The notes beneath the pieces were generated by a model. The model had not been told where the DNA came from and searched no databases. It worked only from the letters and a program-made list of their open reading frames with translations. From NCBI GenBank assembly GCA_028281025.1, contig JANQKR010000049.1:62001-126000 (forward strand): a stretch of DNA of 64,000 nt, given 5' to 3'. Shown piece after piece: positions 1 to 55,198 of the stretch; the first letter of the stretch is position 1; each line of letters starts with the position of its first letter. Made by a program: the position numbers and the translations under genes. The stretch is from Croceivirga sp. (lineage in GTDB: Bacteria > Bacteroidota > Bacteroidia > Flavobacteriales > Flavobacteriaceae).

Positions 1-219
1 CCTAACTTGCAACCTCGTGCTTTCGATCTATCGAAGAACTATTTGTGGCCCATACCACAGAGTGCCATCGATAACCAACCGGATTTTATTACCCAAAACC
101 CTGGGTACTAAAAATTTGCGGAAAGGTGTTTCCCCGTTTTTGGGAAGATATCTTATCTTTAAAGAAAAGGGGGTATGAACATTTCGTACCCCTTTTTCAA
201 TAAGAATAAAACAAATTGC

Positions 220-9046: not shown

Positions 9047-9666
9047 AAGGTATCTAACCTTCTTGGGAGATTCACTTTGAATCCATATTGGATAAAATAG
9101 TTGTCTACCTATATGTTCTGTCCTTTTCTTGGGGTGCTTGCAGGAAAGTTGTAGTAAAAAAGGTAAGTAGCCACAGACAAATTCTTATTCTTGATAGCTT
9201 GACAAGTGCTCTGGTAATTTCCTTGAACCTCGCGAATTAAGAATGAATTCAATTAATGGGCTTACACCTATAGGTATGTTTGTTGAATAAATAAAGGTTA
9301 ATGAACCAAATTGCAAAAAAAGTACATCATCTTATCCTTTTTTTGGTGGTCAGGCGAAAGGAGGTCTTTTATATTTCACCTTTTATAAAATGGATTTGTT
9401 TCACTGAATTTTTCCTATCCTAATTTAATGTTTGTTTGCGGGATTGACTTAAAAAACAAATCCGTTTATGTTTTGAAATTGGAAGTTAAAGCTGAAATGA
9501 AAGGTGTTGCCGAGCTACAACCCATTGGTTGCCCGTAATATGTTTAAGGGGGCCTTTCAACATGAATTGCGCCACTTTACTATTTTATTTGATGTCGTTA
9601 GCTTATTCCATGATTTTTTGCATATTGAACTTATTTTAATTGAACAGTCACTTTTTAAAGCCTAAA
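9047..9666 (+). other. Intergenic stretch, no gene recognised
   Basis: About 620 bases between the TonB receptor and the PorV-like gene. AT-rich, with stops in all frames and no convincing coding signal, RNA gene or inverted repeat on either strand. Its length fits a promoter region for the PorV-like gene, but I could not single out one -33/-7 pair with confidence. Confidence 0.6.
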
Positions 9667-26582: not shown

Positions 26583-31569
<4,987 letters not shown>

Positions 31570-38597: not shown

Positions 38598-39254
38598 CTA
38601 CCAAAAAAAGGACAGCAACATTGTGGCAATAGTTTTGATAAGAAGATCGGTCCTTGTTTTTTGCGAACTGTTTGAATCCTTGCCCTGATGCCTTTTTTGG
38701 AAACCTATATGCGTTCCTTCAACAGAGGCAAAGCCCTCCCGTATTTTTTTATACGCGATTCGCATCTGTGACTCGACCGTCTTTACCGAAATTTCCATAC
38801 GGTCGGCAATTTGTTGGTATTTAAGCCCCTCAAATTTGTTCAGCACCAAAATTTCCCTGCACCTTGGTGGTAAGGTTTCCATGATTTCCCGTAACCTTTT
38901 CAAGCGTTTCTCTAAATTATCAGGGTCTTCCAAGGCCTTGTTTATCTCCTGCAGTTTTAATTCCTCCAAAAAAGAATCCCTTTTGCGGAGTTCCCGGTGT
39001 TTCTTCTTAAAAAGGTTTTGGGCTATGGCGAACAAATAGTGTCTGGGAGATTGGGCTGCGTCCAAAAGTTCCCGTTTTTCCCAGAGTGTTACAAAGGCCT
39101 GTTGAACCATCTCCTCCGCTACGTTCCTGTTGCCCGTATAGGTGGTCATATAAGCCAAAAGCAATGAATGGTATTTGTCAAAAAATTGAGCAAATGCCTG
39201 TTCTTTTCCTTCTTTTATGCCAATACCCAATACTACATCGTCCATACTATTCAT
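38598..39254 (-). CDS. ECF RNA polymerase sigma factor
   Basis: 218 residues. Region 2 (about residues 22-65: FFDKYHSLLLAYM, AEEMVQQAFVTLWE) and region 4 (about 125-172: LPPRCREILVLNKFEGLKYQQIADRM, then the HTH) are complete. Length and layout are typical of FecI-like sigma factors of Bacteroidota PULs. The last 15 residues are unusually hydrophobic (LLIKTIATMLLSFFW). Divergent from the FecR-type gene, 201 bases away. It probably directs RNA polymerase to the susCD operon when released by FecR. Confidence 0.92.
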   Translation of the reverse strand: MNSMDDVVLGIGIKEGKEQAFAQFFDKYHSLLLAYMTTYTGNRNVAEEMVQQAFVTLWEKRELLDAAQSPRHYLFAIAQNLFKKKHRELRKRDSFLEELKLQEINKALEDPDNLEKRLKRLREIMETLPPRCREILVLNKFEGLKYQQIADRMEISVKTVESQMRIAYKKIREGFASVEGTHIGFQKRHQGKDSNSSQKTRTDLLIKTIATMLLSFFW

Positions 39255-39455: not shown

Positions 39456-40610
39456 ATGTCCAGCAATCACTTAGAGTCACTCATTTTAAAATTCTTGGAA
39501 GGCACTATTTCGGAAAAGGAAACGGCCATATTAAAGGAATGGTTGCACAAATCGGAATACCGAAAAACGTTCGAGGCCTACATAAAACAACATTTTGAGC
39601 TTCAGCTTTTACTGCAAGATTCCGATAAAGCAAAAGACTATAGCAACATTTTGGCATCCATCCAAAAGGGACAGGCTACCCGAAAACAACCGGTTATAGC
39701 TTTCGTTTTGCGCTACGCGGCCATTTTTGCAGGAATCACAGTGGGTGCCCTATTTGCATATTATCAACTTATTGATCCAAAAAAGCACCAATCCGCACAA
39801 GAGAGCAAAGTCACCCTGCAATTGCAGGATGGTAGCATCAAGGTACTGGAAGAAGGGGCATCGGGCAGTATCATCACTGCCGAGGGTCAAAAGGTAGTCC
39901 AACAACAAAAAAACGTTTTGTTGTATGCCGATACCGTACCACATATCGCAGGGCCCGAAATCATGGCCTACAATGAACTTACAGTACCCTACGGCAAAAA
40001 ATTCGAACTGAAACTGTCTGACGGTACCCATGTATATCTCAATTCAGGTTCCAGTCTCAAATACCCGGTGCGCTTCTTGGTGGATGGCAATCGGGAAGTG
40101 TTTCTTGATGGCGAGGCCTATTTTGAAGTGGAAAAGAACGACGGTAATCCCTTTGTGGTTAATGCCCAAGGGTTCAATACCGTAGTATTGGGCACCAAAT
40201 TTAATGTATCGAGTTACAAAAACGAATACAATACCTCGACCGTTTTGGTAGAAGGTGCCGTTAGAGTAGAGGGCAATGGTAAGGCTACTGAAATAAGGCC
40301 GGGTGAAAGGGCGACCTTTGAAAATGGAAATATTGCCGTGGACAGGGTAAACGTGGAAAAGCATATCGCTTGGACCAAAGGGCAACTTTATTTTGTGGAT
40401 GACAGTTTTGCACTTATTCTGAAAGAACTTGAGCGCCATTTTGATATGGAAGTACAGGGCAACCACAAAGATCTGGATTCAATTCCGTTTACGGGAACCT
40501 TTGAAACAGAGACCCTGGAAGATATTTTGACCACGTTTCAGTTGCACTCGGATTTTAGCTATAAGGTGAGCGAAAACGGAAAAATCGTATTTATTAACCA
40601 ACTACAATAA
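39456..40610 (+). CDS. FecR-type anti-sigma factor
   Basis: 384 residues. A cytoplasmic N-terminal segment of about 80 residues (sigma-binding), one transmembrane helix at about 85-106, then a periplasmic FecR domain (about 170-265, with L-S-D-G-x-x-V-x-L-N-S-G-S) and a C-terminal DUF4974 domain. This is the standard partner of the STN domain of signalling SusC proteins: the receptor at 40729 carries one. It is divergent from the sigma factor and upstream of susC in the same direction. Confidence 0.92.
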   Translation: MSSNHLESLILKFLEGTISEKETAILKEWLHKSEYRKTFEAYIKQHFELQLLLQDSDKAKDYSNILASIQKGQATRKQPVIAFVLRYAAIFAGITVGALFAYYQLIDPKKHQSAQESKVTLQLQDGSIKVLEEGASGSIITAEGQKVVQQQKNVLLYADTVPHIAGPEIMAYNELTVPYGKKFELKLSDGTHVYLNSGSSLKYPVRFLVDGNREVFLDGEAYFEVEKNDGNPFVVNAQGFNTVVLGTKFNVSSYKNEYNTSTVLVEGAVRVEGNGKATEIRPGERATFENGNIAVDRVNVEKHIAWTKGQLYFVDDSFALILKELERHFDMEVQGNHKDLDSIPFTGTFETETLEDILTTFQLHSDFSYKVSENGKIVFINQLQ

Positions 40611-40728: not shown

Positions 40729-43700
40729 ATGAAAATAATAACTCAATGTAGAGGGCAACTCCCTTTGCAGAAGCTGAAGTTTGACCTAAAGATGAAACTT
40801 TCCGCCATGTTTATAGCCATTGTCCTTTTTCAGGTCAATGCGAACGAAAGCTACTCCCAAGGTGCCAAAATAACCATGGATTTGGAAGGTGCCACGGTCG
40901 GGGAGGCCATGGAAAAGATTGAAGACATTACAGACTTTCGTTTTCTTTATAGCCGTCCCGAGATCGACTTAGATCGCAAAGTGACCCTAAAGGCGCAAAA
41001 GAAATCCATCCAATACATTTTGCGCAGCTTGTTCAGAAGCACGGGCACCACCTTTGCCATCAATGCCAACCAGATTGTGCTAAGAACAAAGAGCGGTAAA
41101 AAACTGGCCATTGCTGCGGAAATGCCCCCACCCGCCCCAGACATCGTTCAACGTACCATAACGGGTACGGTCACCGATGAAAATGGCGCCCCTTTGCCCG
41201 GTGCCAGTATTGTGGAGAAGGGAACTTCCAATGGGACACAGACTGATTTTGATGGGAATTTTTCCATAGATGTCACGGATGATAATGCGGTTTTGGTCAT
41301 TTCCTATATCGGTTTTGCCACCAAGGAAATAGCTGTCAACAACCAAAGCAATATTGGCGTAACCTTACAGGCAGATACGGCCGGTCTTGACGAAGTTGTG
41401 GTTATCGGTTATGGCTCGGTGAAAAGAAGGGACCTTACCGGATCGGTGGCCTCAGTGCAGGCAGAGGAAATTGTCAAAGTGCCCACGGCCAGGATTGATG
41501 ATGCCCTGCGGGGCCGGGTGGCAGGTTTGCAAATTGTTTCTTCAGGAGGAAACCCAGGGGCAAACAATACCATACGAATCAGAGGAAGCAATTCACTGGC
41601 GGCCAACAATGAGCCCTTGGTGGTCATTGATGGTTTTATAGGCGGGGGCGACATCAACAGTATCAATACCAACGATATCCAATCGGTTGATGTGCTCAAA
41701 GATGCTTCTGCGCTGGCCATATATGGTGCCAGGGGTGCCAATGGTGTCATTGTCATCACCACAAAGAGGGGAAGGGTCAATCAGGAGCCCCAGATCACCT
41801 ATTCAAGTTATGTGAGTTCAGAACAGATTGCCGACCAAATAGATCCCTTAAGTAGGGAAGAGTACATAGCCGTTCAAGATATCGCCAATCCCGGGCGTAA
41901 TTACGGTGATGCAAACACTGATTGGGCCGATTTGATTCTTAAAAACGGCTTTACCACAGAAAATACGGTAAGTGTTGCTGGAGGAAGTGAAAAAACACAG
42001 TATTACCTATCGGCCAATTATTTTAGGAGAGAAGGCAATGTAGTCAATGATCTGTTCAAAAGGTATCAAGTTCGGTTGAATCTGGATACCAAAATTGGCA
42101 ATCACATTAAGATAGGAACGACTACCTCCTTGAGCCGTATTGAAAGCGATGGTGCGGGTATAGGAACAGGTGACGTATTCTATGATCCAACCATTCCCGT
42201 TCGAGATGAAAACGGCGATTTTTTCATCCAAGACTTTACCAATTCAAATCCGGACAATCCCGTTAGCCGCACTTCTCAGCTTATAAGGGACAATAGGACC
42301 AATAGGGTTTTGACCAATCTGTTTGCTGAAATCGATTTGTTCGATGGTCTTTCTTTTAAGGCTAGTGCTGCTGTCGATGCAACCTTTTTCAAAGAGATTG
42401 AATTTACACCAAGTACCCTAGGTTCCCAAATCTTGCTCAACAGAACCGGTGAGGCCAATTTACGGTCAGACGAAACATTTAACTTTTTAACGGAATACAC
42501 CCTTAACTACAACAAAACCTTTGGGGACCACAGTATCAATGCGGTTTTGGGGTACACCCAGCAGACCAATGAATACGAGCGTCTAGACGCTGATGGAAGA
42601 AACTTTGTTAGCGATATTTTTACCTACAACGATCTTGGTGGTGCCCAAAATCAACCTGTTCTCGATGATGAGGGAAACCTGCAATCGATTATTGATAACA
42701 GTATTGTAGATTCAGCGGGCAACGATTGGGCCATTGAGTCCTTTCTGGCCAGGGCAAACTATACCTATAAGAACAAGTATTTGTTTACGTTTTCCGGAAG
42801 ATACGATGGATCGTCACGATTTGCGGCCAACAACAAACGGGCCTTTTTTCCATCGGGAGCCTTTTCCTGGAGGGTTTCCGAAGAACCGTTTATGAAAGAT
42901 TCCCCCATTAAAAATCTAAAATTCAGGGCTTCTTATGGCTCCATTGGTAACCAGGCGATTGGTCTATTCCAGTCTTTGGCACGTTTGGGCACCTCGAATT
43001 CCATTGGGGTACTAGGTTTGAATAGGGATTTCGGTTATATATTTGATGGGGCAGTTCAGACAGGGTTTGGGCCTACTTCCATTGACAATCCTGATTTGAC
43101 TTGGGAAACAACCACCTCCTTGGATTTGGGGGTTGATTTTGGACTGTTCAACAACGCTTTGAACGTCACCTTTGATTATTATAATAAAAAGACGACAGAT
43201 TTGCTGGTAGTCGTTCCTATTGCTGATTTTACAGGATTTACAAGTACGTTAAGAAATTTTGGGAGTATCCGCAACACCGGATTTGAACTGGTATTGAACT
43301 CCTTGAATGTAAATACGGAGAATTTTACATGGGAAACTACCCTTAACATTTCCCGAAATAGAAATGAGGTGTTGACACTTGCAAATCCAGAAGGTGAAAT
43401 ACCAGTGCTTCAAGGCTATAATGGGCTTGGCCAGCAGACATTTGGTCTGCTTCGGGTAGGAGAACCCATAGGGGTATTTTATGGTCTTACCAGGGATGGG
43501 ATCTGGAATGATCAAGCAGAAATCGATGCTGCACCCAACGAACTTGGTACGAACACAGGGGCCCAACCCGGTTTTAAACGCTATGTTGATGTCAATGAAG
43601 ATGGCTTTATAGATGATGAAGACAGGGACATTATTGGGGATCCCAATCCAGATTTTTTTGGGGGAATCGATAACACCTTTACCTACAAAGATTTTGACCT

Positions 43701-44124
43701 GTCCGTATTTTTTCAATTCTCAGTAGGAAACGATATCAACAACTACGGGGCGAATAGTAGTTTAGATAGGAGAGAACTGGTTTTGGACGCTTGGAGTGAG
43801 ACAAATACCACCAGTAATTCCCCTTCCATAAGGGATTTACAGAACACTAGTTTTTTTCCTGATGATACTTGGATTGAAGATGGGTCTTTCCTAAGGTTGA
43901 GAACCTTGTCATTAGGGTATAACCTGCCAGTGGAAACCATAAATTTTGTAAGAAATGCGAGGATATACGCCACGGCTACCAATTTGTTTACCATCACAGG
44001 CTATTCGGGCATAAACCCGGATGTGAGCTCAGATGGGGCGGATAGCAATTTGGCCAGGGGATTTGATAGAAATGACTTCCCATTCATAAGAACATTCACG
44101 CTCGGTATAAATGTTAACTTTTAA
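40729..44124 (+). CDS. SusC/RagA-type TonB-linked outer-membrane receptor with STN domain
   Basis: 1131 residues. Signal peptide ending near SYSQ, an STN signalling domain (about 50-118), a CarboxypepD_reg domain (about 140-215, GTVTDENGAPLPGASI), a plug beginning after VVVIGYGSVKRRDLTGSV, and a full 22-strand-type barrel ending NVNF. Imports oligosaccharides with the SusD encoded next. The STN domain contacts FecR and so links uptake to the ECF sigma factor. The susD start at 44135 is 10 bases beyond the stop. Confidence 0.95.
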   Translation: MKIITQCRGQLPLQKLKFDLKMKLSAMFIAIVLFQVNANESYSQGAKITMDLEGATVGEAMEKIEDITDFRFLYSRPEIDLDRKVTLKAQKKSIQYILRSLFRSTGTTFAINANQIVLRTKSGKKLAIAAEMPPPAPDIVQRTITGTVTDENGAPLPGASIVEKGTSNGTQTDFDGNFSIDVTDDNAVLVISYIGFATKEIAVNNQSNIGVTLQADTAGLDEVVVIGYGSVKRRDLTGSVASVQAEEIVKVPTARIDDALRGRVAGLQIVSSGGNPGANNTIRIRGSNSLAANNEPLVVIDGFIGGGDINSINTNDIQSVDVLKDASALAIYGARGANGVIVITTKRGRVNQEPQITYSSYVSSEQIADQIDPLSREEYIAVQDIANPGRNYGDANTDWADLILKNGFTTENTVSVAGGSEKTQYYLSANYFRREGNVVNDLFKRYQVRLNLDTKIGNHIKIGTTTSLSRIESDGAGIGTGDVFYDPTIPVRDENGDFFIQDFTNSNPDNPVSRTSQLIRDNRTNRVLTNLFAEIDLFDGLSFKASAAVDATFFKEIEFTPSTLGSQILLNRTGEANLRSDETFNFLTEYTLNYNKTFGDHSINAVLGYTQQTNEYERLDADGRNFVSDIFTYNDLGGAQNQPVLDDEGNLQSIIDNSIVDSAGNDWAIESFLARANYTYKNKYLFTFSGRYDGSSRFAANNKRAFFPSGAFSWRVSEEPFMKDSPIKNLKFRASYGSIGNQAIGLFQSLARLGTSNSIGVLGLNRDFGYIFDGAVQTGFGPTSIDNPDLTWETTTSLDLGVDFGLFNNALNVTFDYYNKKTTDLLVVVPIADFTGFTSTLRNFGSIRNTGFELVLNSLNVNTENFTWETTLNISRNRNEVLTLANPEGEIPVLQGYNGLGQQTFGLLRVGEPIGVFYGLTRDGIWNDQAEIDAAPNELGTNTGAQPGFKRYVDVNEDGFIDDEDRDIIGDPNPDFFGGIDNTFTYKDFDLSVFFQFSVGNDINNYGANSSLDRRELVLDAWSETNTTSNSPSIRDLQNTSFFPDDTWIEDGSFLRLRTLSLGYNLPVETINFVRNARIYATATNLFTITGYSGINPDVSSDGADSNLARGFDRNDFPFIRTFTLGINVNF

Positions 44125-44134
44125 AAAAAAGACT

Positions 44135-45622
44135 ATGAAAAACACATTTTTAAAACGTAGTGCACTATTTGGATTCTTATCTCTATTACTGGCATCTTGC
44201 ACGGATTTAGATGAGATTCCAAGGGATGAGTTCACTCCATCCAATTTTTTTCTAACCGAAGCTGATGCAGAAGCTGCTGTAACTTCTGCATATGCAGGGG
44301 TGGCAGCAGATGAGGTGTGGAATTTTGGAATAGGTTGGGGAGGAACGGATATTTGCTTTTACCGTTGGCAAGATCCGTTTTCAAGTTATGTAGGATTGAA
44401 TGCCGATTTTACCATTACATCATTAATTTATACAGATTTATATTCTGGGGTAGGTAGGGCCAATACTGCGATTATTGGAATTACTGGAATGGAGAATATT
44501 GATGAGTCCTTGAGGGTACAGTTATTGGCCGAGGCTAAGTTTTTAAGGGCCTATTTTTACTATAATTTGACCAACTTATTTGGTGACCTGCCACTTCTTA
44601 CAGAGCCCGTAACAAGTTTTGAAGAAACTGAAGCGTTGGCCGTACGTACCCCTGTAGCCGATATTTACAATGAATTGATTATTCCTGATTTACAACAGGC
44701 TGTAGCCGATTTGCCCACTCTGGAACGTAGACAGGGAACGGTTACTACCTACGCGGCATCTTTGTTGTTGGCCAAAGCTTATATGTATAGGGGAGACTAT
44801 CAAAATGCCAATACGGCACTTGATGGTGTAATAGGGCAAGCGAATTTAGGATTGGCCGCAGATTATTTTGACTTATTTAGAGTAGGCAATGAATTTCAAT
44901 CGGTACCCGGCTTGGATGGTGGTATGGTACGAGAAGATATTTTTGATGCCCAGTTTTCCCAAGACTTCAATGGTAATGCCATGGTACATTGGATGGGTTC
45001 GGAATCCTTTAATCCTCTTAGTAATGGCGGTGCTGGTTGGAGCAACATCTTGCCTACGGTCGATTATGTAAATATGTTCGACCAAACCAACGATGTAAGG
45101 TTTCAACAAATCTATACGGACGCATTTGGAGACCGGGATCTAAGGGACGAAGATTTGACCAATGAATGGTTGTACAATGTGCGAAAATATATGGATGATT
45201 CCGGTGCCGCGCCTAACAATGAAGGCGGTATGAACATTCATATATTAAGGTATGCCGATGCTCTTCTTCTAAAAGCGGAAGCGGTGAATGAACTCAATGG
45301 GCCTGATGCTGCCTATCAATATATCAACCCTGTAAGACGAAGGGCGGGGATAAGTGAATTAAGTGGCTTATCCAAAGACCAGCTATTGGATTCCATTAAA
45401 GTAGAAAGAGCTAGGGAATTGGGCTTTGAAGATAATAGGCGGTTCGATCTTCTACGATGGGGAGACTTAGTTACTGCAGTAAGGGGCTTATCTGAAGATA
45501 GAACAGATGGTCCTGCGAATATACAAGAGCATAATGTATTGATGCCCATACCACAGTCTGAAATAGATGCTACCAATGGAAAATTGGGACAAAACCCGGG
45601 TTATGCCGCAGGAGGTAATTAA
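44135..45622 (+). CDS. SusD/RagB-type surface glycan-binding lipoprotein
   Basis: 495 residues from ATG 44135; the earlier ATG at 44111 overlaps the susC end and would add eight residues. Lipobox LASC, then TDLDEIPRDEFTPSNFF, as usual for SusD. Helical TPR-like core and the C-terminal segment (RRAGI, RARELGFEDNRRFDLLRWG) are typical. It caps SusC and captures glycan at the cell surface. A terminator-like structure follows. Confidence 0.95.
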   Translation: MKNTFLKRSALFGFLSLLLASCTDLDEIPRDEFTPSNFFLTEADAEAAVTSAYAGVAADEVWNFGIGWGGTDICFYRWQDPFSSYVGLNADFTITSLIYTDLYSGVGRANTAIIGITGMENIDESLRVQLLAEAKFLRAYFYYNLTNLFGDLPLLTEPVTSFEETEALAVRTPVADIYNELIIPDLQQAVADLPTLERRQGTVTTYAASLLLAKAYMYRGDYQNANTALDGVIGQANLGLAADYFDLFRVGNEFQSVPGLDGGMVREDIFDAQFSQDFNGNAMVHWMGSESFNPLSNGGAGWSNILPTVDYVNMFDQTNDVRFQQIYTDAFGDRDLRDEDLTNEWLYNVRKYMDDSGAAPNNEGGMNIHILRYADALLLKAEAVNELNGPDAAYQYINPVRRRAGISELSGLSKDQLLDSIKVERARELGFEDNRRFDLLRWGDLVTAVRGLSEDRTDGPANIQEHNVLMPIPQSEIDATNGKLGQNPGYAAGGN

Positions 45623-45818: not shown

Positions 45819-48800
45819 ATGCAGGGTAGGAATAATCATTTTTTTCACTCCATTGTTTTTGGAGTATTACTCATTTCCGCTTGTTCCGAGCGAAAGGCGC
45901 CTGAATCTATAGCCGAAAAGAAGAATCATAAAATGTTTGAAATTCTATCACCGAAGGAATCAGGGATAAACTTTGCCAATAAGTTGCCCGAATCCACACG
46001 GATGAACGGCCTGTTTTATGAATACTACTACAATGGCAGTGGTGTGGCCACGGGCGATTTTGACAATGATGGGCTCGTGGACATCTACTTTGTGTCCACC
46101 TTGGACAAAAATAAACTTTACCTTAATACGGGCGACCTCAACTTTAAGGACAGCGGGCCCCAAACAAGCGTAGGAGGCAAAGCACTTTTTCAAACCGGGG
46201 TGACCACCGTGGACATCAATAATGATGGCTGGTTGGATATTTACGTATGTGCTTCCGGAAAGTTTGAAGACCCCAATAAAAGAAAAAACGAGTTGTACGT
46301 CAATCAAGGGCTGAACGAAAACAATGAGGTGTTTTTTGAAGAAAAAGCTGCGGATTATGGGTTGGACCTTCCCAACTTCTCCACCCAGGCCGCTTTTTTT
46401 GACTATGACCGTGATGGCGACTTGGATATGTTCCTTATCAACCATGATGTGAATGTGTACCAAAACGAATTGTTGGAAGTGTATGCCAATAGCACCTCCA
46501 ACTTGAGTGGGGATGCCTTGTTCAAAAATGAAAACGGTTTTTTTGTGGATGTTACCACCGATGCAGGTATTGTGAACAATCGATTGAGTTTTGGGTTGGG
46601 CCTGGCCACGGGAGATGTGAACAACGATGGATGGCCCGACGTTTACGTAAGTCACGATTTTTCTGGAAGGGACCATCTCTACCTAAATGCCAAAGATGGC
46701 ACATTTAAAGAAACCACCCTGGCATCGTTGAACCATATTTCCAACTTCTCCATGGGCAACGACATGGCTGATTTTAACAATGATGGCTGGTTGGACGTTG
46801 TGACCTTGGATATGATGTCCGAGGACAATTATGGAATAAAGACCAGCATGAGCAGTATGAACCCCGAACAGTTTTATAAGGTAGTGGGCGCGGACCAGCA
46901 TTATCAATATATGTTCAATGCACTCCAAATGAACAATGGGGTGACCGATACAAACCAACCGCCCCAATTTTCGGATATCGCCCAAATGGCGGGAATTTCC
47001 AGTACCGATTGGAGTTGGGCACCCTTGATGTTCGATATGGATTTGGATGGTCTTAAAGACATGTTTGTCTCCAATGGGATAAAAAGGGATTTTAGAAATA
47101 ATGACTTTGTCAATTTCCATAAAGAGTTAAGGGCACAACTATCGCAGCAAAAAACACTGGACGAAAGGGCTTATGTGGCCACGGTCATGGCCAGGATTCC
47201 CACCAGGAACAAACCCAACTATTTTTATAGGAACAAGGGTGACCTGACCTTTGAAAACAAAAATGAGGTTTGGGCCGATGGCAATCCTACAAGTTCAAAC
47301 GGGGCCGCCATAGCAGATTTTGACAATGATGGCGATATGGATTTGGTGGTCAACAATACGGACAGTCTCTCCTATATACAAAAGAATTTGGCCCGTGAAT
47401 TTGAACAGGGCAATTACCTTAAGGTCGCCTTCAAGGGGAGTTCAAAAAACAGTTTGGGGATTGGTGCCAAAGTTATGGTCACCACGCCCAACGAAAACCA
47501 AATGCATGAACATTACGTAACCAGGGGCTTTCAATCGGCCGTTGCTCCAGGCCTGCATTTTGGTTTGGATAATGAAAAAACTGTTGAAAAACTAAAGGTG
47601 ATTTGGCCCGACGGCAAAGTACAGCTCCTCAAAAAAATAAAGACCAACCAAACCCTTACGATGGATTATCGGGATGCAGTTGCTGTTACTGCCAAAACGG
47701 ATGAAGGTGACGAAAACAAAAGATGGTTCAAAACTATGGATGTTGGGACCGCCATAGCCTATAAGCATATGGAGAACGAGTTTGACGACTTTGAAAGGGA
47801 AAGCCTGTTGCCGCATAGAATGTCGCAATTCGGTCCCGCTTTGGCCACAGCCGATGTCAATGGTGACGGTCTGGACGATATCTATGTAGGGGGAAGTGCC
47901 GGGAATAAGGGCCATTTGTTTTTGCAAAATAGCGATGGCAGCTTCGTCTCCGTTCAAGAAAAGCTGTTTAAAGCGGAAAAAAAATACGAAGATGTTGGGG
48001 CCACCTTTTTTGATGCCGACAACGATGGCGATTTGGATCTATATGTGGTCAGTGGCGGCAATGAAGCCGAGGCCCAATCCAACAAATATGAAGACCGATT
48101 TTACGAGAATAAAAATGGCACTTTTGGGAGAACTACAGGAGTTTTGCCAAAATTATATGAAAGTGGCTCATGTGTAAGGCCCCATGATTATGACGGCGAT
48201 GGCGATATGGACCTCTTTGTTGGCGGCAGGCAAGTCCCGGGAAAATACCCCATTTCCCCGAACAGCTACCTATTACAAAATAGCTATAGCGAAACAGCAG
48301 ACCTGTCCTTTACCGATGTTACTCCCCAAGTGGCACCGGCCATGGAGAAAATGGGCATGGTCACCGATGCCGTATGGGTCGATATTGATAATGACGGGTT
48401 AACGGATCTTGCCGTAACCGGGGAGTGGATGCCCATTACCATACTGAAGAACACGGGCACCTTATTTGAGGATAAAACCCAGGAATACGGCTTGTCGGAA
48501 GATACAGGATGGTGGTTCAGTGTAGCGGCGGCCGATTTTGACAACGATGGTGATATGGATTTGATGGGAGGAAATCTGGGACTTAATTATAAATACAAGG
48601 CCAGCAAGGAAGAACCTTTTGAAATCTATGCCACCGATTTTGACGATAGTGGGGATTTGGATATTGTTTTGGGCTATTACAACGGCGGGGATTTGTTCCC
48701 GCTGCGTGGCAGGGAATGTTCCTCCAACCAAATGCCGTTTATCAAAGAAAAGTTTCCCTCATACGATGCCTTCGGAAAAGCGACCTTAATCGATGTTTAT

Positions 48801-49211
48801 GGAGGTGAAAAGTTGGAGGGGGCAACACATTATGCAGCCAAAAACTTCGCCAGCAGCTATTTTGAAAACAAAGAAGGGAAGCGTTTTGAAGTAGTAAAAT
48901 TGCCGATGGAAGTGCAATTGTCGTCGGTCAACGTCATCCTGCCCCAAGACTTTGATCAAGATGGGAACATGGATGTTGTTGTCGCGGGCAACCTATACGG
49001 TTCCGAAGTGGAAACCCCTAGGAATGATGCCGGTTTTGGCCTATTCCTAAAAGGGGATGGCATAGGCGGGTTTGTCCCAATACCGGCACACCAGAGTGGC
49101 ATAAGCATCAGTGGTGAGGTACGGCAAACGGCGGCATTGCGGGTATCAGGACAGAAAATGTATGTCATGGCCATCAATCAAGGGCCGCTTGTCGCAATCA
49201 AAAAAATGTAA
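45819..49211 (+). CDS. CRTAC1-like FG-GAP/UnbV lipoprotein
   Basis: 1130 residues, lipobox LLISAC near residue 22. Two blocks of VCBS/FG-GAP Ca-binding loops (DFDNDGLVDIYF, DYDRDGDLDMF, DFNNDGWLDVV and many more) flank an ASPIC/UnbV domain at about residues 525-605. Large CRTAC1 lipoproteins of this size are often found just after SusCD in Bacteroidota; their role is unknown but surface adhesion or substrate binding is likely. No T9SS domain. The next gene follows, encoding CRTAC1 fused to haloperoxidase. Confidence 0.85.
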   Translation: MQGRNNHFFHSIVFGVLLISACSERKAPESIAEKKNHKMFEILSPKESGINFANKLPESTRMNGLFYEYYYNGSGVATGDFDNDGLVDIYFVSTLDKNKLYLNTGDLNFKDSGPQTSVGGKALFQTGVTTVDINNDGWLDIYVCASGKFEDPNKRKNELYVNQGLNENNEVFFEEKAADYGLDLPNFSTQAAFFDYDRDGDLDMFLINHDVNVYQNELLEVYANSTSNLSGDALFKNENGFFVDVTTDAGIVNNRLSFGLGLATGDVNNDGWPDVYVSHDFSGRDHLYLNAKDGTFKETTLASLNHISNFSMGNDMADFNNDGWLDVVTLDMMSEDNYGIKTSMSSMNPEQFYKVVGADQHYQYMFNALQMNNGVTDTNQPPQFSDIAQMAGISSTDWSWAPLMFDMDLDGLKDMFVSNGIKRDFRNNDFVNFHKELRAQLSQQKTLDERAYVATVMARIPTRNKPNYFYRNKGDLTFENKNEVWADGNPTSSNGAAIADFDNDGDMDLVVNNTDSLSYIQKNLAREFEQGNYLKVAFKGSSKNSLGIGAKVMVTTPNENQMHEHYVTRGFQSAVAPGLHFGLDNEKTVEKLKVIWPDGKVQLLKKIKTNQTLTMDYRDAVAVTAKTDEGDENKRWFKTMDVGTAIAYKHMENEFDDFERESLLPHRMSQFGPALATADVNGDGLDDIYVGGSAGNKGHLFLQNSDGSFVSVQEKLFKAEKKYEDVGATFFDADNDGDLDLYVVSGGNEAEAQSNKYEDRFYENKNGTFGRTTGVLPKLYESGSCVRPHDYDGDGDMDLFVGGRQVPGKYPISPNSYLLQNSYSETADLSFTDVTPQVAPAMEKMGMVTDAVWVDIDNDGLTDLAVTGEWMPITILKNTGTLFEDKTQEYGLSEDTGWWFSVAAADFDNDGDMDLMGGNLGLNYKYKASKEEPFEIYATDFDDSGDLDIVLGYYNGGDLFPLRGRECSSNQMPFIKEKFPSYDAFGKATLIDVYGGEKLEGATHYAAKNFASSYFENKEGKRFEVVKLPMEVQLSSVNVILPQDFDQDGNMDVVVAGNLYGSEVETPRNDAGFGLFLKGDGIGGFVPIPAHQSGISISGEVRQTAALRVSGQKMYVMAINQGPLVAIKKM

Positions 49212-49257: not shown

Positions 49258-52200
49258 TTGAAAAATTACACTAACATACCAATTTGTACGGCCATCGGTA
49301 TTCTTATGTTTTCCATATCCACCAGTCATGGCCAGGAATTCCAGGAAATTTCGGCAAATGTAAATATTCACCAATCCAGTGAACTTAGCAGCAGTGCGGT
49401 TGCCGATTATGACAAAGATGGGGATTTGGACATCTTTATGGTGGCCTTAAACTCCTTCGATGAAAACAATCCCAATACCTGGAGCCGCCTGCTAAAGAAC
49501 AATGGGGATGCCGGTTATGAAGATGTTACCCTAGCCGCCGGTTTTGGCCAGCAATACGCCCGGACAGGTACGGCCAGCGAAATGTGGGACAAGATGGGGG
49601 CCAGTTGGGGCGATTATGACAATGATGGATACCCCGACCTCCTATTGACCCACTTTAGGAAAGTGGAACTGTACCACAACCAAGGCGATGGTACCTTTAT
49701 CGATGTGACCGAAGACTCTGGGATAGAAGACTGTTACGAATGCCACGGCAGTAGTGCTTTATGGTGGGATTACGACAACGATGGCGATTTGGACCTTTAC
49801 ATTAGTGACTGGTCGCTGGCCAACCGCCTGTTCCGCAATGATGGAAACAATTCCTTTACCAATGTAAGCTCGGAAACCGGTTTGGGTGATGAAGGGCAAA
49901 CATGGGCAAGTGTGCCCATAGATGTCAACAAAGATGGCTGGCTGGACTTATATGTTGTCAATGATTTTAGGGTGGCCAACCGTCTTTATGTCAGTGTTGA
50001 AGGCGAGTTTTTTATTGAATCTACCAAGGAATATGGTTTGGAGGACTACGGTGATGGCATGGGCATAACCATCGGAGATTACAACAACGATGGCCGGTTC
50101 GACATCTATTTGACCAATATCTTTAGGAACAAATACAACCCTTTTTTCGTGGGAACGCCTTCAGGGATGTTCAACGAACGCGCGAAAGAATTGGGGGTGG
50201 ACAATGCCGATTGGGCCTGGGGCACACATTTTTTTGATTATGACCATGATGGCGATGAAGATTTATATGTAGTCAACGGTTTTGGGGCCGACCAAAATAC
50301 CAACAGGCTGTTCAAGAATATGTTCGCTGAGGGCATCAATGGATTCAATGATTTATCCGAAACTTCAGGCTTGAACAGCATCGCCAGTGCCGTAGGGATG
50401 GAGGTGTTTGACCATGACAATGACGGGGATCTGGACATTTTGGTCTCCAACACCCATACGGTGGCAGATTTTTACGAAAATGAAGTCATTTCCGAGGATA
50501 AAACCGTGGCGCCAGGTTGGTTAAAGGTAGCCTTGGAAGGCGTAATCTCCAACAAAGATGCCATAGGCACCACCTTGGAAATTACGGTTTCAGGAAGAAA
50601 ATTGCACCGATACCATCATGGGGCGGCCATAATGGCACAAAGCCTTAAACCCGTGCATTTTGGGTTTGAACAAGTAGAAAAAATTGACCGCCTGCTGGTC
50701 AAATGGCCAAGTGGAATCATCAATGCTTTTTTTGACATCCCGGCAAATCAAACCATAACTATTGTTGAAGACGAAGACAGTTCATTACCCCCTGATGACA
50801 TCCCTACCGAAGCCGTTTCCCATTCCGTGGCCAGAAAGTGGAACGAGCTTTTGTTGGAATCCATACGAAATGACTTTGCCAGGCCAACCGTGCACGCCCG
50901 TAACCTGTTTCATACCTCCATGGCCATGTACGATGCCTGGGCCACCTTTAATGCCGAGGCTCAGACCATTTTCTTGGGAAAGACTTTTGGGAATTATACC
51001 AGCACGTTCAATGGTGCACCAAATGTTGAAGATATACAGGCGGCCCAAGAGGAGGCCATTAGTTTTGCCGCTTTTCGAATATTGAGCCATCGTTTTAATA
51101 ATTCTCCGGGAGGTACCATGATGCTAAACCGTTATGTGAAACTCATGGAAGATTTGGGGTACGATACCAATATCACTTCCGTGGATTATACCGCTGATGG
51201 GGCAGCGGCTTTGGGAAATTCCATCGCCCAACAGCTTATTGAATTCGGCCTGCAAGATGGTTCCAATGAGCAGAACGATTATGCCAACATCCATTATTTG
51301 CCCAGCAATGAGCCTTTAATTGTCGATGGGCCGGGTAATCCCACGTTGACGGAACCCAATTTATGGCAACCGTTGACCTTGAGCACCTTTATTGACCAAA
51401 GTGGCAATGTGCTGGAGCAATCCACTCCAGATTTTCTGAGCCCTGAATGGGGACAGGTGGTTCCTTTTGCCCTTAGTGACGAAAACCTTGAAACACACAC
51501 TAAGAACGGTTTTAACTATAAGGTGTACTACGATCCGGGAGCCCCCGTAAAAATCCTTTCGGACGGCACATTGGGGCTGGACGATCCCTATAAATGGGGC
51601 TTTGCCCTGGTGGCGGTATGGTCGGCACATCTGGATCCCAGGGATGGGGTAATGATGGACATATCCCCGGCTTCTTTGGGAAATACGGCCTTAAGGGACT
51701 TTCCCAAAACTTTTGAGGAATACAAATCGTACTATAAATTTTTTGAGGGGGGCGATTTGGGAACAGGCCATGACGTCAACCCCATTACAGGTCAACCCTA
51801 TGCGCCACAAATTGTGCCCAAGGGAGATTATGCCCGTGTTTTGGCCGAGTTTTGGGCCGATGGTCCCGATTCCGAAACCCCACCGGGACATTGGTATACC
51901 ATACTAAATTATGTGAGCGACCATCCATTGACCGAAAAGCGGTTTATGGGGAAAGGGGAAGTTTTGGACGATTTGGAATGGGATGTCAAATCCTACCTTA
52001 CCCTTGGCGGTGCCATGCACGATGTAGCCATATCGGCCTGGGGCATAAAAGGCTATTATGACTATATACGCCCCATTTCCGCCATTCGCTACATGGCCTC
52101 GAAAGGACAAAGTACCGATAGGGGCCTGCCCAGCTACCATCCAGAGGGCATTCCTTTGATTCCCGGTTACATTGAGGTAATTGAAGCTGGGGATCCGCTT

Positions 52201-53016
52201 GCCGGGGACAATAACGAAAACCTAGGGCACATTAAACTATATGCATGGAAGGGAACGCACTTTGTCAAGAATCCGGATGCCGATGTGGCGGGTGTCGATT
52301 GGATTTTGGCAGAAAATTGGGTTCCCTACCAGCGCCCCTCATTTGTGACCCCTCCTTTTGCCGGTTATGTGTCCGGGCATTCCACTTTTTCAAGGGCGGC
52401 GGCAGAGGTGCTCACCAAGCTCACTGGAAGCAATTTTTTTCCGGGGGGAATGGGGATATTCAATGCCGGAAAAAATAGGTTTTTGGTATTTGAAGATGGG
52501 CCAAGCCAAGATTTGGCCCTACAATGGGCCACCTACCAAGATGCCTCCGACCAAACAAGCCTGTCACGGATATGGGGAGGTATCCACCCGCCAATCGATG
52601 ATATTCCAGGGAGACTGATAGGGGAAGATATTGGGAAACTGGCTTTTGAAACAACCTTGGACTATTTCTACAAAGATGAAGATAACGACGGTGTATACAG
52701 CTTTGAGGATTGCGACGATAATAATGATCAGGTTGGGGATTGTCCGGAAGAGGATAACGATAGGAACAAATCACCGGAGTTTGCGGTATATCCCGTTCCG
52801 GTAGAAGATGAAGTGACCCTGAATATCGATTTCAACGGCTCCCTGACCTACCGGGTATATAACTTATATGGAGCCATCGTATTGAGCGGTGAGGTGGTTG
52901 TCCAGAACAAGGAATGCTTCATGAATCTTGGTAGTTTATCCACTGGGATGTATGTGATGGTCTGTACAAATGAAAATGGAAGCAGATTAGTAAGTCAAAA
53001 AATCATCAAAAAGTGA
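49258..53016 (+). CDS. Fusion of CRTAC1-like FG-GAP/UnbV protein to vanadium-haloperoxidase-like domain, T9SS-secreted
   Basis: About 1252 residues from a TTG at 49258, which places a hydrophobic signal sequence ending TSHGQ at the N-terminus; the in-frame ATG at 49111 lies inside the preceding gene. Residues about 30-500 are FG-GAP/UnbV (like the 220-2193 protein). A linker with LPPDD follows, then a PAP2/haloperoxidase part closely similar to the 2225-4432 protein. Vanadate motifs are intact: K931 and R938, S-G-H at 1039-1041, R1104 and H1110. An acidic, Ca-binding-like linker (DEDNDGVYSFEDCDD) precedes a T9SS type A domain. Two genes of the other locus are thus one polypeptide here. Confidence 0.87.
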   Translation: MKNYTNIPICTAIGILMFSISTSHGQEFQEISANVNIHQSSELSSSAVADYDKDGDLDIFMVALNSFDENNPNTWSRLLKNNGDAGYEDVTLAAGFGQQYARTGTASEMWDKMGASWGDYDNDGYPDLLLTHFRKVELYHNQGDGTFIDVTEDSGIEDCYECHGSSALWWDYDNDGDLDLYISDWSLANRLFRNDGNNSFTNVSSETGLGDEGQTWASVPIDVNKDGWLDLYVVNDFRVANRLYVSVEGEFFIESTKEYGLEDYGDGMGITIGDYNNDGRFDIYLTNIFRNKYNPFFVGTPSGMFNERAKELGVDNADWAWGTHFFDYDHDGDEDLYVVNGFGADQNTNRLFKNMFAEGINGFNDLSETSGLNSIASAVGMEVFDHDNDGDLDILVSNTHTVADFYENEVISEDKTVAPGWLKVALEGVISNKDAIGTTLEITVSGRKLHRYHHGAAIMAQSLKPVHFGFEQVEKIDRLLVKWPSGIINAFFDIPANQTITIVEDEDSSLPPDDIPTEAVSHSVARKWNELLLESIRNDFARPTVHARNLFHTSMAMYDAWATFNAEAQTIFLGKTFGNYTSTFNGAPNVEDIQAAQEEAISFAAFRILSHRFNNSPGGTMMLNRYVKLMEDLGYDTNITSVDYTADGAAALGNSIAQQLIEFGLQDGSNEQNDYANIHYLPSNEPLIVDGPGNPTLTEPNLWQPLTLSTFIDQSGNVLEQSTPDFLSPEWGQVVPFALSDENLETHTKNGFNYKVYYDPGAPVKILSDGTLGLDDPYKWGFALVAVWSAHLDPRDGVMMDISPASLGNTALRDFPKTFEEYKSYYKFFEGGDLGTGHDVNPITGQPYAPQIVPKGDYARVLAEFWADGPDSETPPGHWYTILNYVSDHPLTEKRFMGKGEVLDDLEWDVKSYLTLGGAMHDVAISAWGIKGYYDYIRPISAIRYMASKGQSTDRGLPSYHPEGIPLIPGYIEVIEAGDPLAGDNNENLGHIKLYAWKGTHFVKNPDADVAGVDWILAENWVPYQRPSFVTPPFAGYVSGHSTFSRAAAEVLTKLTGSNFFPGGMGIFNAGKNRFLVFEDGPSQDLALQWATYQDASDQTSLSRIWGGIHPPIDDIPGRLIGEDIGKLAFETTLDYFYKDEDNDGVYSFEDCDDNNDQVGDCPEEDNDRNKSPEFAVYPVPVEDEVTLNIDFNGSLTYRVYNLYGAIVLSGEVVVQNKECFMNLGSLSTGMYVMVCTNENGSRLVSQKIIKK

Positions 53017-53158: not shown

Positions 53159-55198
53159 GTGAAACAAAGCAATTTTTTTTTATTAGGGTTAATCTTAAGT
53201 GCCTGTAATCAAACAGTACAAAAAGAAACCGTTCCCTTTACGGAAAACAATTCGGGAATCCATCAGGCAATTGCCCTAGAGCAATTGCCCTATCGCAAAA
53301 CGGGGGTTATCAGCAAGCAGACCTCTTCTATGAACAAGGACGGAGGCAACAATGACAGGCGTTGCTATCCCTACATCAATGCCACCAATGATGAAGCTGT
53401 TTTGATGGAAGAATACGGCCCTGGTTGTATTCATCGTATTCAAACCAGTTCGTCCTGGGACAAAGGTGCCCATATTAGAATAAATATTGATGGAAACGAA
53501 GTGGTGTACATGTCCTGTGACGATTTTTTCTCCATGAAAAAACCTGGATTTCCAGCTCCATTGGTGGCCGATAAACGCACCTCCAGCGGCACGAGCTTTT
53601 CGTATGTACCGATGGTATTTCACAGCTACTGTAAAGTAAGTCTGTCCAAATACAAAGGTAAAAACCACTTTCAAGTGCAATACCACAAATATGCCGATGT
53701 ACCTGCAGTACCCGCTTATTCAAAAGACCAGGATGTAACGGCCTTGCAAAAGCTTTGGAACAATGGTGGGAAACTGTTGCCTTATTTTTCAGATACAGAA
53801 GCAATAGAAGGCAGCAAAAAAATTCGGGAAGGTACCAACGAACTCTTGGCCCATACAGGACCTGGAACCATCGCGGGAATCAGGATTCAGTTGCCCGAAA
53901 GCTACAAAACCGTCCAACAATGCCGCATTCAAATGACCTGGGATGGTGCAAAAAAGCCACAAGTCGACGTTCCCTTGGGCCTATTTTTTTCCGGGGCCAT
54001 AGGCTACAAACCCTACAAAAGCATCTTGGTGGGCATCGGCCCGGACAAAACCGCCTACCTCAACTATCCCATGCCCTTCTGGAAATCCGTCAAAATCGTA
54101 CTGAAAAACGATAGCGGCACCTCCTTTGATTTGAACTACCGTTTTTATATTTCCGAAAAAGTATATGCCGACCATGCCGGATATTTCAACGCTTGGTACC
54201 ACGAAGAAAAACCGACCACGGCATATCAGGATTATACTCTGTTGAAAACAGGCGGTTGGGGCCATTGGGTGGCCACGCACCACCTCCTGGAGGGAAGGGA
54301 AAATCTCGGTTTCCTCGAAGGTGATGAACGCATTTATTACGATGGCATGCAAACACCGGCATTGCAGGGCAGTGGCTATGAGGACTTCTATAATGGGTCG
54401 TACTACTTTCAGTATGGGGAATACAACCTGCCCATTAGCGGCGTACAAATGATGCGGCACATCTATGAAAGTACGGATGGTTGGGAAGACCGTGTAATTT
54501 CGGAACGCATCGAAGAAGGCAGTTCCCACCTGATGCTGTACCGTCATCTGGTCACAGATTGGATTCCCTTTAACGATGGCATTAAAGCGGGAGCAGAAGT
54601 GGGCCCGGAAGGCAACCAGGAACGGATGTACGAAAGCGTCTCCTTTTTCTACGGAAAGCCCGAAAGCAAGCTCGTACAGACCGATGAAATCAATGTGGGC
54701 GATGCAGTATCGGAAAAAGCACATGACTATCAAGTAAAACAAGCAAAGGCTATTGCATTGACCTCCACCTACGAAGGTGACCATGACGATGTGGAGTTCT
54801 CCGATGATGGAAATAGTATCGAACCAGGGGGCAGTTCAACATTTAAGGTGAACATTGATGAAAGAAACATCGGAGTAAAATTGAGAAGACGTTTGGACTA
54901 TTCCAAACTCAACCAAAAAGCCAAAGTAATGGTGGATGGCGAAGAAGCAGGAATTTGGTTTACCGTAGGAAACAACGAACACCACAGCATGCGGGAAGAT
55001 GAATTTTTGATTCCCACAGCCCTGACCAAGGGAAAAAAAGAAATTAGAGTAAGTATAGAACCCATGCCTTCTAGCGGGGACCAAATGAAAGACGGACAAC
55101 AGCCAAACCCAGAAAACAATACCTATATGGAACGAAAAACAATCCCGGAAGGCCCTTGGACGGAACTTCACTATGGGGTGCATTGTGTTTTGGAATAG
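53159..55198 (+). CDS. GH172 (DUF2961)-type lipoprotein, divergent copy
   Basis: 679 residues from a GTG at 53159; lipobox LSAC lies at residue 16, which fixes this start. DUF2961 core with L-E-G-D-E (E390) and G-S-G-Y-E-D-F-Y (E408), an 18-residue gap, so the catalytic pair is present. Little similarity to the 20504 and 26583 copies outside these motifs. A long C-terminal beta-rich region (about 470-679) follows. It opens the last enzyme block of the window. Confidence 0.8.
   Translation: MKQSNFFLLGLILSACNQTVQKETVPFTENNSGIHQAIALEQLPYRKTGVISKQTSSMNKDGGNNDRRCYPYINATNDEAVLMEEYGPGCIHRIQTSSSWDKGAHIRINIDGNEVVYMSCDDFFSMKKPGFPAPLVADKRTSSGTSFSYVPMVFHSYCKVSLSKYKGKNHFQVQYHKYADVPAVPAYSKDQDVTALQKLWNNGGKLLPYFSDTEAIEGSKKIREGTNELLAHTGPGTIAGIRIQLPESYKTVQQCRIQMTWDGAKKPQVDVPLGLFFSGAIGYKPYKSILVGIGPDKTAYLNYPMPFWKSVKIVLKNDSGTSFDLNYRFYISEKVYADHAGYFNAWYHEEKPTTAYQDYTLLKTGGWGHWVATHHLLEGRENLGFLEGDERIYYDGMQTPALQGSGYEDFYNGSYYFQYGEYNLPISGVQMMRHIYESTDGWEDRVISERIEEGSSHLMLYRHLVTDWIPFNDGIKAGAEVGPEGNQERMYESVSFFYGKPESKLVQTDEINVGDAVSEKAHDYQVKQAKAIALTSTYEGDHDDVEFSDDGNSIEPGGSSTFKVNIDERNIGVKLRRRLDYSKLNQKAKVMVDGEEAGIWFTVGNNEHHSMREDEFLIPTALTKGKKEIRVSIEPMPSSGDQMKDGQQPNPENNTYMERKTIPEGPWTELHYGVHCVLE

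Follow-up and report, generated by a model that had tools for sequence, protein, structure and literature searches.

Recurrent pairing of CRTAC1-type propellers with vanadium haloperoxidases points to a possible oxidative module at the cell surface of Bacteroidota that has so far gone unrecognised

Among vanadium haloperoxidases (vHPOs), the iodoperoxidase of Zobellia galactanivorans has been characterised, and XhnO11, NapH3 and the bacterial chloroperoxidase are natural-product enzymes; we know of no CRTAC1 fusion in any of the latter three. To our knowledge, no physiological partner has been assigned to secreted bacterial vHPOs outside natural-product clusters, no function to bacterial CRTAC1 proteins and no vHPO partner to vertebrate CRTAC1. 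SusCD importers usually take up a glycan or a peptide. In the literature searched, no paper was found that treats CRTAC1 or FG-GAP together with a haloperoxidase, nor any report of a CRTAC1/SusCD setting for the Zobellia iodoperoxidase, the original 2014 enzyme paper lying outside that literature.

The window analysed here is a stretch of 64,000 nucleotides from Croceivirga sp. (Flavobacteriaceae) that starts at C29:62001; the segment L001 (C29:44001-62300) covers its left edge. It contains a left and a right locus with the following features.

L001:13335-16448 = C29:57335-60448, upstream of the window: SusC gene of the left operon (TonB_dep_Rec_b-barrel/Plug)
1..111, + strand: 3' end of the SusD gene of the left operon (SusD_RagB; L001:16507-18111 = C29:60507-62111)
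220..2193, + strand: P0002, separate small CRTAC1-type protein with a signal-peptide-like N-terminus (Pfam)
2225..4432, + strand: P0003, separate large vHPO with a T9SS type A tail (Pfam, NCBIfam, fold match)
38598..39254, - strand: ECF sigma factor (Pfam Sigma70_r2/r4_2)
39456..40610, + strand: FecR-type anti-sigma factor (Pfam FecR, FecR_C)
40729..44124, + strand: SusC-type TonB-dependent transporter of the right operon
44111..45622, + strand: SusD-type protein of the right operon
45819..49211, + strand: long CRTAC1-type protein of 1130 aa, with FG-GAP repeats flanking UnbV on both sides
49258..53016, + strand: P0001, CRTAC1-vHPO fusion of 1252 aa with a T9SS type A tail (Pfam, NCBIfam)
49330..50790, + strand: CRTAC1 part of P0001, FG-GAP propeller and UnbV, the latter at 50560-50760 (Pfam, fold match)
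50815..52662, + strand: vHPO part of P0001 (Pfam, motifs, alignment)
52786..53013, + strand: T9SS type A sorting domain of P0001 (Por_Secre_tail, residues 1177-1249; TIGR04183)
53159..55198, + strand: DUF2961 protein 3' of the fusion in the right locus, presumably of the GH172 type

The first-pass annotation had described the 49258 protein as a CRTAC1-type and a haloperoxidase-type part fused in one polypeptide with a T9SS domain, and every part was matched by Pfam or NCBIfam: FG-GAP_3 (E 3e-35), UnbV_ASPIC (8e-12), DUF6851 (6e-11), VCPO_2nd (3e-7) and Por_Secre_tail (4e-8), with the NCBIfam model TIGR04183 for the T9SS type A sorting domain above its cut-off. TTG at 49258 is a plausible start, being followed by a signal-peptide-like stretch; an in-frame GTG at 49111 is an alternative. 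The same annotation had the genes at 220-2193 and 2225-4432 carry these two parts as separate neighbours, each with its own T9SS domain. The two parts were indeed recovered, FG-GAP_3 and UnbV in P0002 (open frame from 175) and DUF6851, VCPO_2nd and Por_Secre_tail in P0003. The sorting domain held for P0003, where it is of type A and above cut-off in both Pfam and NCBIfam; in P0002 it is sub-threshold (20.6 bits vs a Pfam cut-off of 27, no NCBIfam match), the C-terminus resembling one by eye. Identity is 64% between the vHPO domains of P0001 and P0003 (611 aligned columns) and 31% between the CRTAC1 parts of P0001 and P0002.

In both P0001 and P0002, FG-GAP repeats followed by UnbV scored above the curated cut-offs, which places them with the CRTAC1/ASPIC-UnbV proteins. 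The best fold match of the CRTAC1 part of P0001 was murine CRTAC1 (9ETN; TM 0.73 by target length, E 1e-24), and further matches included integrin alpha and the GlcNAc-binding PVL-type lectin propellers. Seven calcium-site motifs of the DxDxDGxxD type were counted in the N-terminal half of P0001; the propeller is probably calcium-dependent. UnbV also occurs in enediyne clusters; this was considered as a link to iodine and dropped, no paper naming both having been found. The model of the fused P0001 (AlphaFold2 on nine rows) showed no visible domain interface at a pLDDT of 57.6, with much of the vHPO half below 50, a quality too poor for contacts between the CRTAC1 and vHPO domains to be read from it.

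The SusC and SusD genes just 5' of the window's left edge mean that the left pair 220/2225, like the fusion, is preceded by SusCD. Three of the four vHPO genes found in this genome lie in the order SusC-SusD-CRTAC1-(CRTAC1)-vHPO, the third such locus being on C26, so that the proposed tie between the oxidative module and an uptake system was supported by SusCD in all three CRTAC1-vHPO loci. Both window loci combine the SusC/SusD pair with carbohydrate-active enzymes, as expected of SusCD polysaccharide utilisation loci, and carry fucosidases, GH16, GH20, GH116, DUF2961 and sulfatase genes for glycan degradation. The ECF sigma factor at 38598..39254 is a probable regulator of the right operon.

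Recurrence of the pairing across genomes, the check proposed in the first-pass annotation, gave a positive result for both forms. Among 60 same-family genomes, 14 of the 23 large vHPOs outside this genome were confirmed CRTAC1 fusions (G008:C71, with a frame of 1341 aa, was left out of this count) and 8 were standalone. For the shorter, iodoperoxidase-type genes, CRTAC1 was the immediate same-strand neighbour in 16/22 cases in the family, these 22 being the places found with the large-type query (a short-type query might find more), and in 41/79 loci of the phylum sample. CRTAC1 was located upstream of the vHPO in 14 of 17 pairs in the family and 41 of 42 in the phylum sample, with gaps of no more than 50 bp in 17/17 and 36/42 pairs, respectively; as a background, 1029 ORFs flanking large vHPOs contained one UnbV. 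Immediate adjacency was lacking in 6/22 family loci and in 38/79 phylum loci, 8 of the 38 having UnbV within two genes, and a vHPO type of 484-500 aa had a CRTAC1 neighbour in 0 of 4 cases. The phylum sample derives from 102 places, 3 of them already in the set; 80 of the other 99 were read, comprising all 74 with at least 299 bits and 6 of the 25 weaker ones. L165, in which a spurious antisense frame hid the vHPO, was left out, and as a same-strand UnbV ends 1.75 kb before its vHPO match, this omission probably lowers the count.

The separate arrangement seen at 220/2225 did not recur among the large-vHPO loci of the best 80 of 572 relatives, many on short contigs. UnbV was the immediate neighbour in 0/80 loci, so that we rejected this pair as a common arrangement, and it occurred anywhere in the flanks once (L076, four ORFs distant). 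As 67 of the 80 also lacked a large N-terminal extension, the propeller is not obligatory beside a large vHPO. Three of the 80 represent a second kind of propeller fusion, with FG-GAP and no UnbV match. The phylum search with the large type also gave four places beyond this genome whose frames, 1080-1350 aa long, were left unread.

Fusion may have occurred several times, or once with losses. A quick-method tree of 105 vHPO rows requires 6 changes in the CRTAC1-fused label, and starred branches force no fewer than 5 of them; one of these is probably an artefact, L014 being on a contig that starts 97 bases before the match (L014, L022 and L055 belong to one MAG). In the same tree, L095 is a standalone row within a fused clade. 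For 121 CRTAC1 parts, sampled only from loci chosen for their vHPOs or from this genome, FastTree gave a tree in which the fused CRTAC1s need 3 changes and fall, together with P0002, in one starred set of 19 rows.

Combined, these results suggest that in this phylum CRTAC1 and vHPO are conserved partners, encoded as an operon or as a fused T9SS polypeptide, and that they act at the cell surface as an oxidative module docked onto SusCD; we give this reading roughly an even chance of being right. In this genome the operon form lies behind the SusC-SusD importer. Most likely, the vHPO would draw on vanadate, H2O2 and a halide, which would be iodide in the Zobellia-type enzyme and either iodide or bromide in the large type, and generate hypohalous species at the cell's outer surface. 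As a docking or substrate-binding partner, the propeller would hold the reaction at the SusCD complex or its cargo, and the oxidant would be consumed, or the cargo oxidised, next to the importer. The first-pass interpretation, in which the propeller positions or tethers the oxidising enzyme within a module attached to glycan uptake, thus stood in part: adjacency and fusion recur and SusCD accompanies all three such loci of this genome, whereas the separate 220/2225 arrangement was not repeated in the 80 loci compared. A positioning or tethering role for the propeller is our inference.

The two proteins could instead each be accessory to SusCD loci or to one lifestyle, and be adjacent without working together, which we consider unlikely. 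This genome has two loci (C44, C6) with SusCD and CRTAC1 and no vHPO, and ordinary sugar-use genes are found in some flanks of the iodoperoxidase operons. UnbV was present in 34/34 vHPO-bearing genomes of the family, and in the phylum in 59/60 with the iodoperoxidase type and 18/18 with the large type, vs 8/26, 82/236 and 123/278 of the genomes in which no vHPO was found (Fisher p 2e-9, 1e-21 and 9e-7, with kinship ignored); the 296 phylum genomes were taken as the same set across searches, with a partial list of those without a match. Shared ecology could explain this co-occurrence; however, it persists in the 7 family genomes in which a standalone large vHPO was the only one found (G005, G017, G029, G039, G040, G054, G058). 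Against mere proximity, in-frame fusions recur, and where SusCD was visible near a short vHPO, CRTAC1 was there too in 23 of 24 loci, even though UnbV (208 matches) is much rarer in the 60 same-family genomes than SusD (at least 559, with up to 32 candidates scored per genome). Of 102 short-vHPO loci, 49 had CRTAC1 and no SusCD in the stretch read and 29 had neither, so that the SusCD link holds for 23; the SusCD of the remaining loci may often lie outside the stretch read.

A second alternative, in line with the first-pass proposal, is that the propeller is a calcium-dependent lectin which, like a carbohydrate-binding module, brings the vHPO to a polysaccharide, where halide oxidation would attack or loosen the glycan or attached phenolics. 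The glycan genes of both window loci and the match to GlcNAc-binding lectins are consistent with it. However, N-termini in the commoner operon form are lipobox-like by a loose pattern in 71/96 long CRTAC1 proteins and 70/106 vHPOs, which fits a fixed surface complex better than a free glycan-seeking enzyme, and genes for small alpha-glucosides, trehalase among them, are found in the operon flanks. We regard glycan targeting as improbable too, to much the same degree as mere proximity.

It is still less probable that the module captures iodine, with iodide being oxidised at the surface and the oxidised or organically bound iodine imported by SusCD. Residues 12-443 of the 450 in the C26 vHPO match 4cit, the characterised Zobellia iodoperoxidase (E 5.6e-224, 747 bits), and CRTAC1 propellers carry calcium-site motifs. 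Iodine uptake by Arenibacter C-21, also of the Flavobacteriaceae, reportedly requires glucose, oxygen and calcium, a haloperoxidase has been proposed for it and the genome encodes at least 5 homologues of the Zobellia enzyme (PMC5064120). Nevertheless, no genetic link came up in the organisms considered, the window loci are flanked by glycan genes and SusCD usually imports glycans or peptides.

The catalytic residues bear on the assumed chemistry. The motifs W-x2-K-x6-RP, F-x4-SGH and SR-x5-H-x3-D are all present in P0001 and P0003 (W928, K931, R938, F1034, S1039-H1041, R1104 and H1110 in P0001 numbering), bearing out the earlier statement that both haloperoxidase parts keep the full vanadate site (K-x6-R, SGH, R-x5-H). 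Across 43 aligned rows of the large type, all ten columns that were checked are invariant save for one ambiguous X, and W406 and F512, which we take to correspond to the Trp and Phe at the VCPO halide site, are invariant in 43/43. The model of the P0003 vHPO domain (AlphaFold2 pLDDT 87.4, pTM 0.92) has the alpha-helical bundle fold of the family: each of the 17 PDB entries that it matches at E ≤0.001 is a vHPO or a homologue of one. That the fold serves as a phosphatase or in other vanadate-free chemistry is very doubtful: PAP2 phosphatases share the K-x6-RP, SGH and SR-x5-H-x3-D motifs, the C26 protein matches Pfam PAP2 and the close fold match NapH3 is titled a rearrangement-catalysing vHPO homologue, but the Trp and Phe are kept in all 43 large vHPOs aligned and, with the three motif patterns, in 98/106 short vHPOs, acid and lipid phosphatases appear among the fold matches solely at E >1, and a characterised iodoperoxidase is among the relatives of the short type.

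The recurrent operon and fusion link across the phylum sample provides a candidate partner for both the vHPO and bacterial CRTAC1, and in this genome an enzyme of a characterised iodoperoxidase family is placed beside a nutrient importer. Two questions thereby become directly testable, the purpose of marine iodoperoxidases and the role of bacterial CRTAC1. A wider proposal, to which we attach a low probability, is that CRTAC1 is a dedicated vHPO partner throughout the phylum and that, with SusC-SusD, it builds an outer-membrane machine of a new class in which import is coupled to the oxidation of halide; a single site would both make and take up oxidised or halogenated cargo, or iodine itself, and the fused protein would be its single-chain, T9SS-exported form.

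Set against the known systems, the Zobellia iodoperoxidase (PDB 4CIT, 4USZ) is a close relative of the C26 vHPO over almost its full length and shares its catalytic motifs, whereas it is distant from the large window enzymes (Foldseek 16% identity); P0003 matches 4cit over residues 525-610 only (E 1.5e-4), close full-length similarity was found for neither P0001 nor P0003, and the spacing from motif Lys to motif Ser is 108 residues in P0001 (K931 to S1039) vs 34 in the C26 protein. By sequence, the large type is a subfamily separate from the Zobellia-type iodoperoxidase. The best fold matches of P0003 are XhnO11 (9L8X), NapH3 (8CXL) and the bacterial chloroperoxidase (3W35/3W36), with E 3e-17 to 4e-15 and an identity of just 16-18%. 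Murine CRTAC1 and the ASPIC/UnbV family have the FG-GAP propeller plus UnbV in common with the N-terminal part of the fusion. Finally, the loci follow the order of SusCD polysaccharide utilisation loci, SusC-SusD-accessory proteins-enzymes, but where these typically carry a glycosidase as accessory enzyme, a haloperoxidase-type protein is found here instead.

The protein encoded at 49258-53016 begins with a signal-peptide-like sequence, followed by FG-GAP repeats and a UnbV_ASPIC domain (the CRTAC1-type propeller), the DUF6851 and VCPO_2nd domains of a large vanadium-haloperoxidase-type protein (vHPO) and a type A sorting tail of the type 9 secretion system (T9SS). These profile matches confirm the proposal of the first-pass annotation that the two parts are joined in one chain here and are carried by separate genes at the other end of the window. 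The active-site residues are retained in sequence and alignment, so the vanadate motifs are intact in both vHPO parts, as had been claimed. A T9SS domain had been ascribed to each separate protein; this holds for the vHPO, whereas in the CRTAC1 protein the sorting domain fell under the cut-off. The genes are as follows.

220-2193: CRTAC1 protein (P0002), left locus
2225-4432: large vHPO (P0003), left locus, in the order SusC-SusD-CRTAC1-vHPO with SusC and SusD mostly beyond the window edge
45819-49211: long CRTAC1 protein, right locus, preceded by ECF sigma, FecR, SusC and SusD
49258-53016: CRTAC1-vHPO fusion (P0001), right locus, following the long CRTAC1 gene

In pairwise comparisons, the fused and separate vHPO domains are 64% identical and the CRTAC1 parts 31% identical. 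The domain model of P0003 gave a confident fold (pLDDT 87.4) matching XhnO11, NapH3, a bacterial chloroperoxidase, Curvularia chloroperoxidase and the Zobellia iodoperoxidase. For the fusion, the best structural match of the model was murine CRTAC1, ahead of integrin alpha chains, lectins of the PVL type and further propellers; the model did not resolve the vHPO half.

The genome (5.1 Mb) encodes seven UnbV proteins, spread over five loci, and four vHPO genes (search with P0005 as query). The third vHPO, a short, iodoperoxidase-type protein on another contig (E 6e-224 to the Zobellia iodoperoxidase 4cit), lies in the order SusC-SusD-CRTAC1-CRTAC1-vHPO with a gap of 2 bp from the second CRTAC1; the fourth does not adjoin CRTAC1. 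As there are at least 31 SusD matches, the presence of three of the four vHPOs in the five CRTAC1-bearing loci is unlike what SusCD placement alone would lead one to expect. CRTAC1 and vHPO make up the core that the loci share, accompanied by SusCD at each of the three loci in this genome, irrespective of cargo. The window loci carry fucosidase, GH16, GH20, GH116, DUF2961 and sulfatase genes. Three fucosidases and two 3-keto-disaccharide hydrolases are present, and DUF2961 occurs four times (20504-22648, 26583-28262, 53159-55198 and 59195-61390); these proteins we take to be GH172-type. A PorV-type T9SS protein (9640-10815) is encoded within the glycan locus, 3' of TonB-receptor and DUF4249 genes.

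Recurrent adjacency across genomes, the check named by the first-pass annotation, gave a strongly positive result for the operon and a moderately positive one for the fusion. In 60 Flavobacteriaceae genomes, own genome included, all 22 listed places of short vHPOs outside the own genome were taken in, and 16 of the 22 had an immediate same-strand UnbV neighbour. Gaps in CRTAC1/short-vHPO pairs were within 50 bp or overlapping in 17/17 cases, although mechanically called gene starts may understate them. In the Bacteroidota sample the short type was found in 60/296 genomes (E 1e-20 or better); CRTAC1 adjoined it in 41 of the 79 loci analysed, UnbV lay at most two genes away in 8 further loci, and CRTAC1 was 5' of the vHPO in 41/42 pairs. 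As controls, only 1 of 1029 ORFs around large vHPOs, mostly in other genomes, was UnbV, and adjacency to CRTAC1 was 0/4 for a vHPO type of 484-500 aa.

For co-occurrence, the Fisher p values ignore phylogeny and lifestyle and so overstate the certainty. UnbV was present in 34/34 family genomes in which a vHPO was found compared to 8/26 without, in 59/60 phylum genomes with the iodoperoxidase type compared to 82/236 (the exception, G304, having a weak match), and in 18/18 with the large type compared to 123/278. In fusion-bearing genomes co-occurrence is built in; UnbV was also present in all seven family genomes in which a standalone large vHPO was the only vHPO found.

Fusions were assessed among the best 80 of at least 572 large-vHPO relatives found by contig search: 8 were CRTAC1 fusions with UnbV, 3 were fused to FG-GAP repeats without a UnbV match, 2 had an N-terminal extension and 67 had no large one. 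In the family sample, own genome excluded, 14 of 23 full-length large vHPOs were confirmed UnbV fusions and 8 standalone; the remaining one, known by its 1341-aa frame length, stays outside the confirmed count. In the phylum the large type occurred in 18/296 genomes, and 4 of 21 places outside the own genome had frames of 1080-1350 aa, fusion-sized by length alone. The fusion thus seems to be most frequent in the family to which the window belongs. Among the fused loci are some from organisms named or labelled Muricauda, Allomuricauda, Aestuariivivens, Eudoraea and Roseivirga. One fusion (L008) is on a contig labelled Rhodobiaceae, likely a binning error; its tail is Bacteroidota-like. By eye, the extension of L013:8666-12154 and L072:102-3566 (one starred clade) looks LRR plus Ig-like, in place of the propeller. 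The three FG-GAP fusions without a UnbV match (L042, L083, L085) form another starred clade with a DxDxDGxxDxCDxCP-like linker (by eye).

In a quick-method tree of 105 vHPO rows, the fused label appeared in several separate places. Starred branches force at least five changes, of which one (L014) is probably artefactual, its contig being cut. In the CRTAC1 tree (121 rows, FastTree), a single starred set of 19 rows held the fused propellers together with P0002; the row nearest to P0002 was a 572-aa CRTAC1 (L133, genome G037) adjoining an iodoperoxidase-type vHPO.

In the operon form, lipobox-like starts (loose pattern) were seen in 71/96 long CRTAC1 proteins and 70/106 vHPOs. Same-strand SusCD was at most six genes away in 24/102 loci, 23 of which also had CRTAC1; 49/102 had CRTAC1 without SusCD in the stretch examined and 29/102 had neither. 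Our inference is that the proteins form a complex at the surface, where the propeller would dock the oxidising enzyme.

Searches confined to open-access literature retrieved no paper combining CRTAC1 or FG-GAP with haloperoxidase, nor any three of UnbV, SusD, CRTAC1, TonB-dependent and VCBS repeat; with this scope, novelty is provisional. Two of haloperoxidase, SusD and VCBS are co-mentioned in an Arenibacter genome note and in a Rhizobium genome paper. The available text of vHPO papers on Bacteroidetes, Zobellia or secretion (including PMC9296495, PMC11871015, PMC8407465 and PMC13198595) does not mention the CRTAC1-vHPO setting, nor does that of PMC12188728, where vHPO appears in the reference list only. 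A published physiological clue comes from Arenibacter C-21, which encodes at least five homologues of the Zobellia iodoperoxidase and whose iodine uptake reportedly needs glucose, oxygen and calcium (PMC5064120). Zobellia vIPO3 reportedly showed higher expression on fresh Ascophyllum than on alginate (PMC9296495).

Flanking genes were surveyed downstream of 18 chosen CRTAC1-adjacent family loci. The 78 proteins included 15 MFS transporters, 9 GyrI-like proteins, 6 of the alpha-amylase family, 5 trehalases and 4 PfkB kinases. Many family loci encode, directly 3' of the iodoperoxidase gene, a protein of ~300 aa with a weak GyrI-like domain (L005:15615-16514 in the own genome, and relatives). HD-domain and PycTM (Pycsar effector-type) matches, 5/78 each, recur 3' of the operon (L157:260-1471 and similar) and are probably the same ~400-aa proteins. 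Some loci (L176:1712-3614, L182:11795-13168, L188:3824-6973) add a thioredoxin-like protein, proteins with sub-threshold haem or Cu-monooxygenase matches or, by eye, FG-GAP proteins with CxxCH motifs (L182 and L188:3824-5374 lying outside the scan), hinting at further redox parts. In several family operons (L157-L164, L122-L138) the genes that follow are of the trehalase, GH13, PfkB and sugar MFS kinds, and in L172 the vHPO has a GH65 gene next to it; such flanks link alpha-glucoside use to the haloperoxidase. The window loci differ from these flanks in having fucosidases, GH16, GH20, GH116, DUF2961 and a sulfatase.
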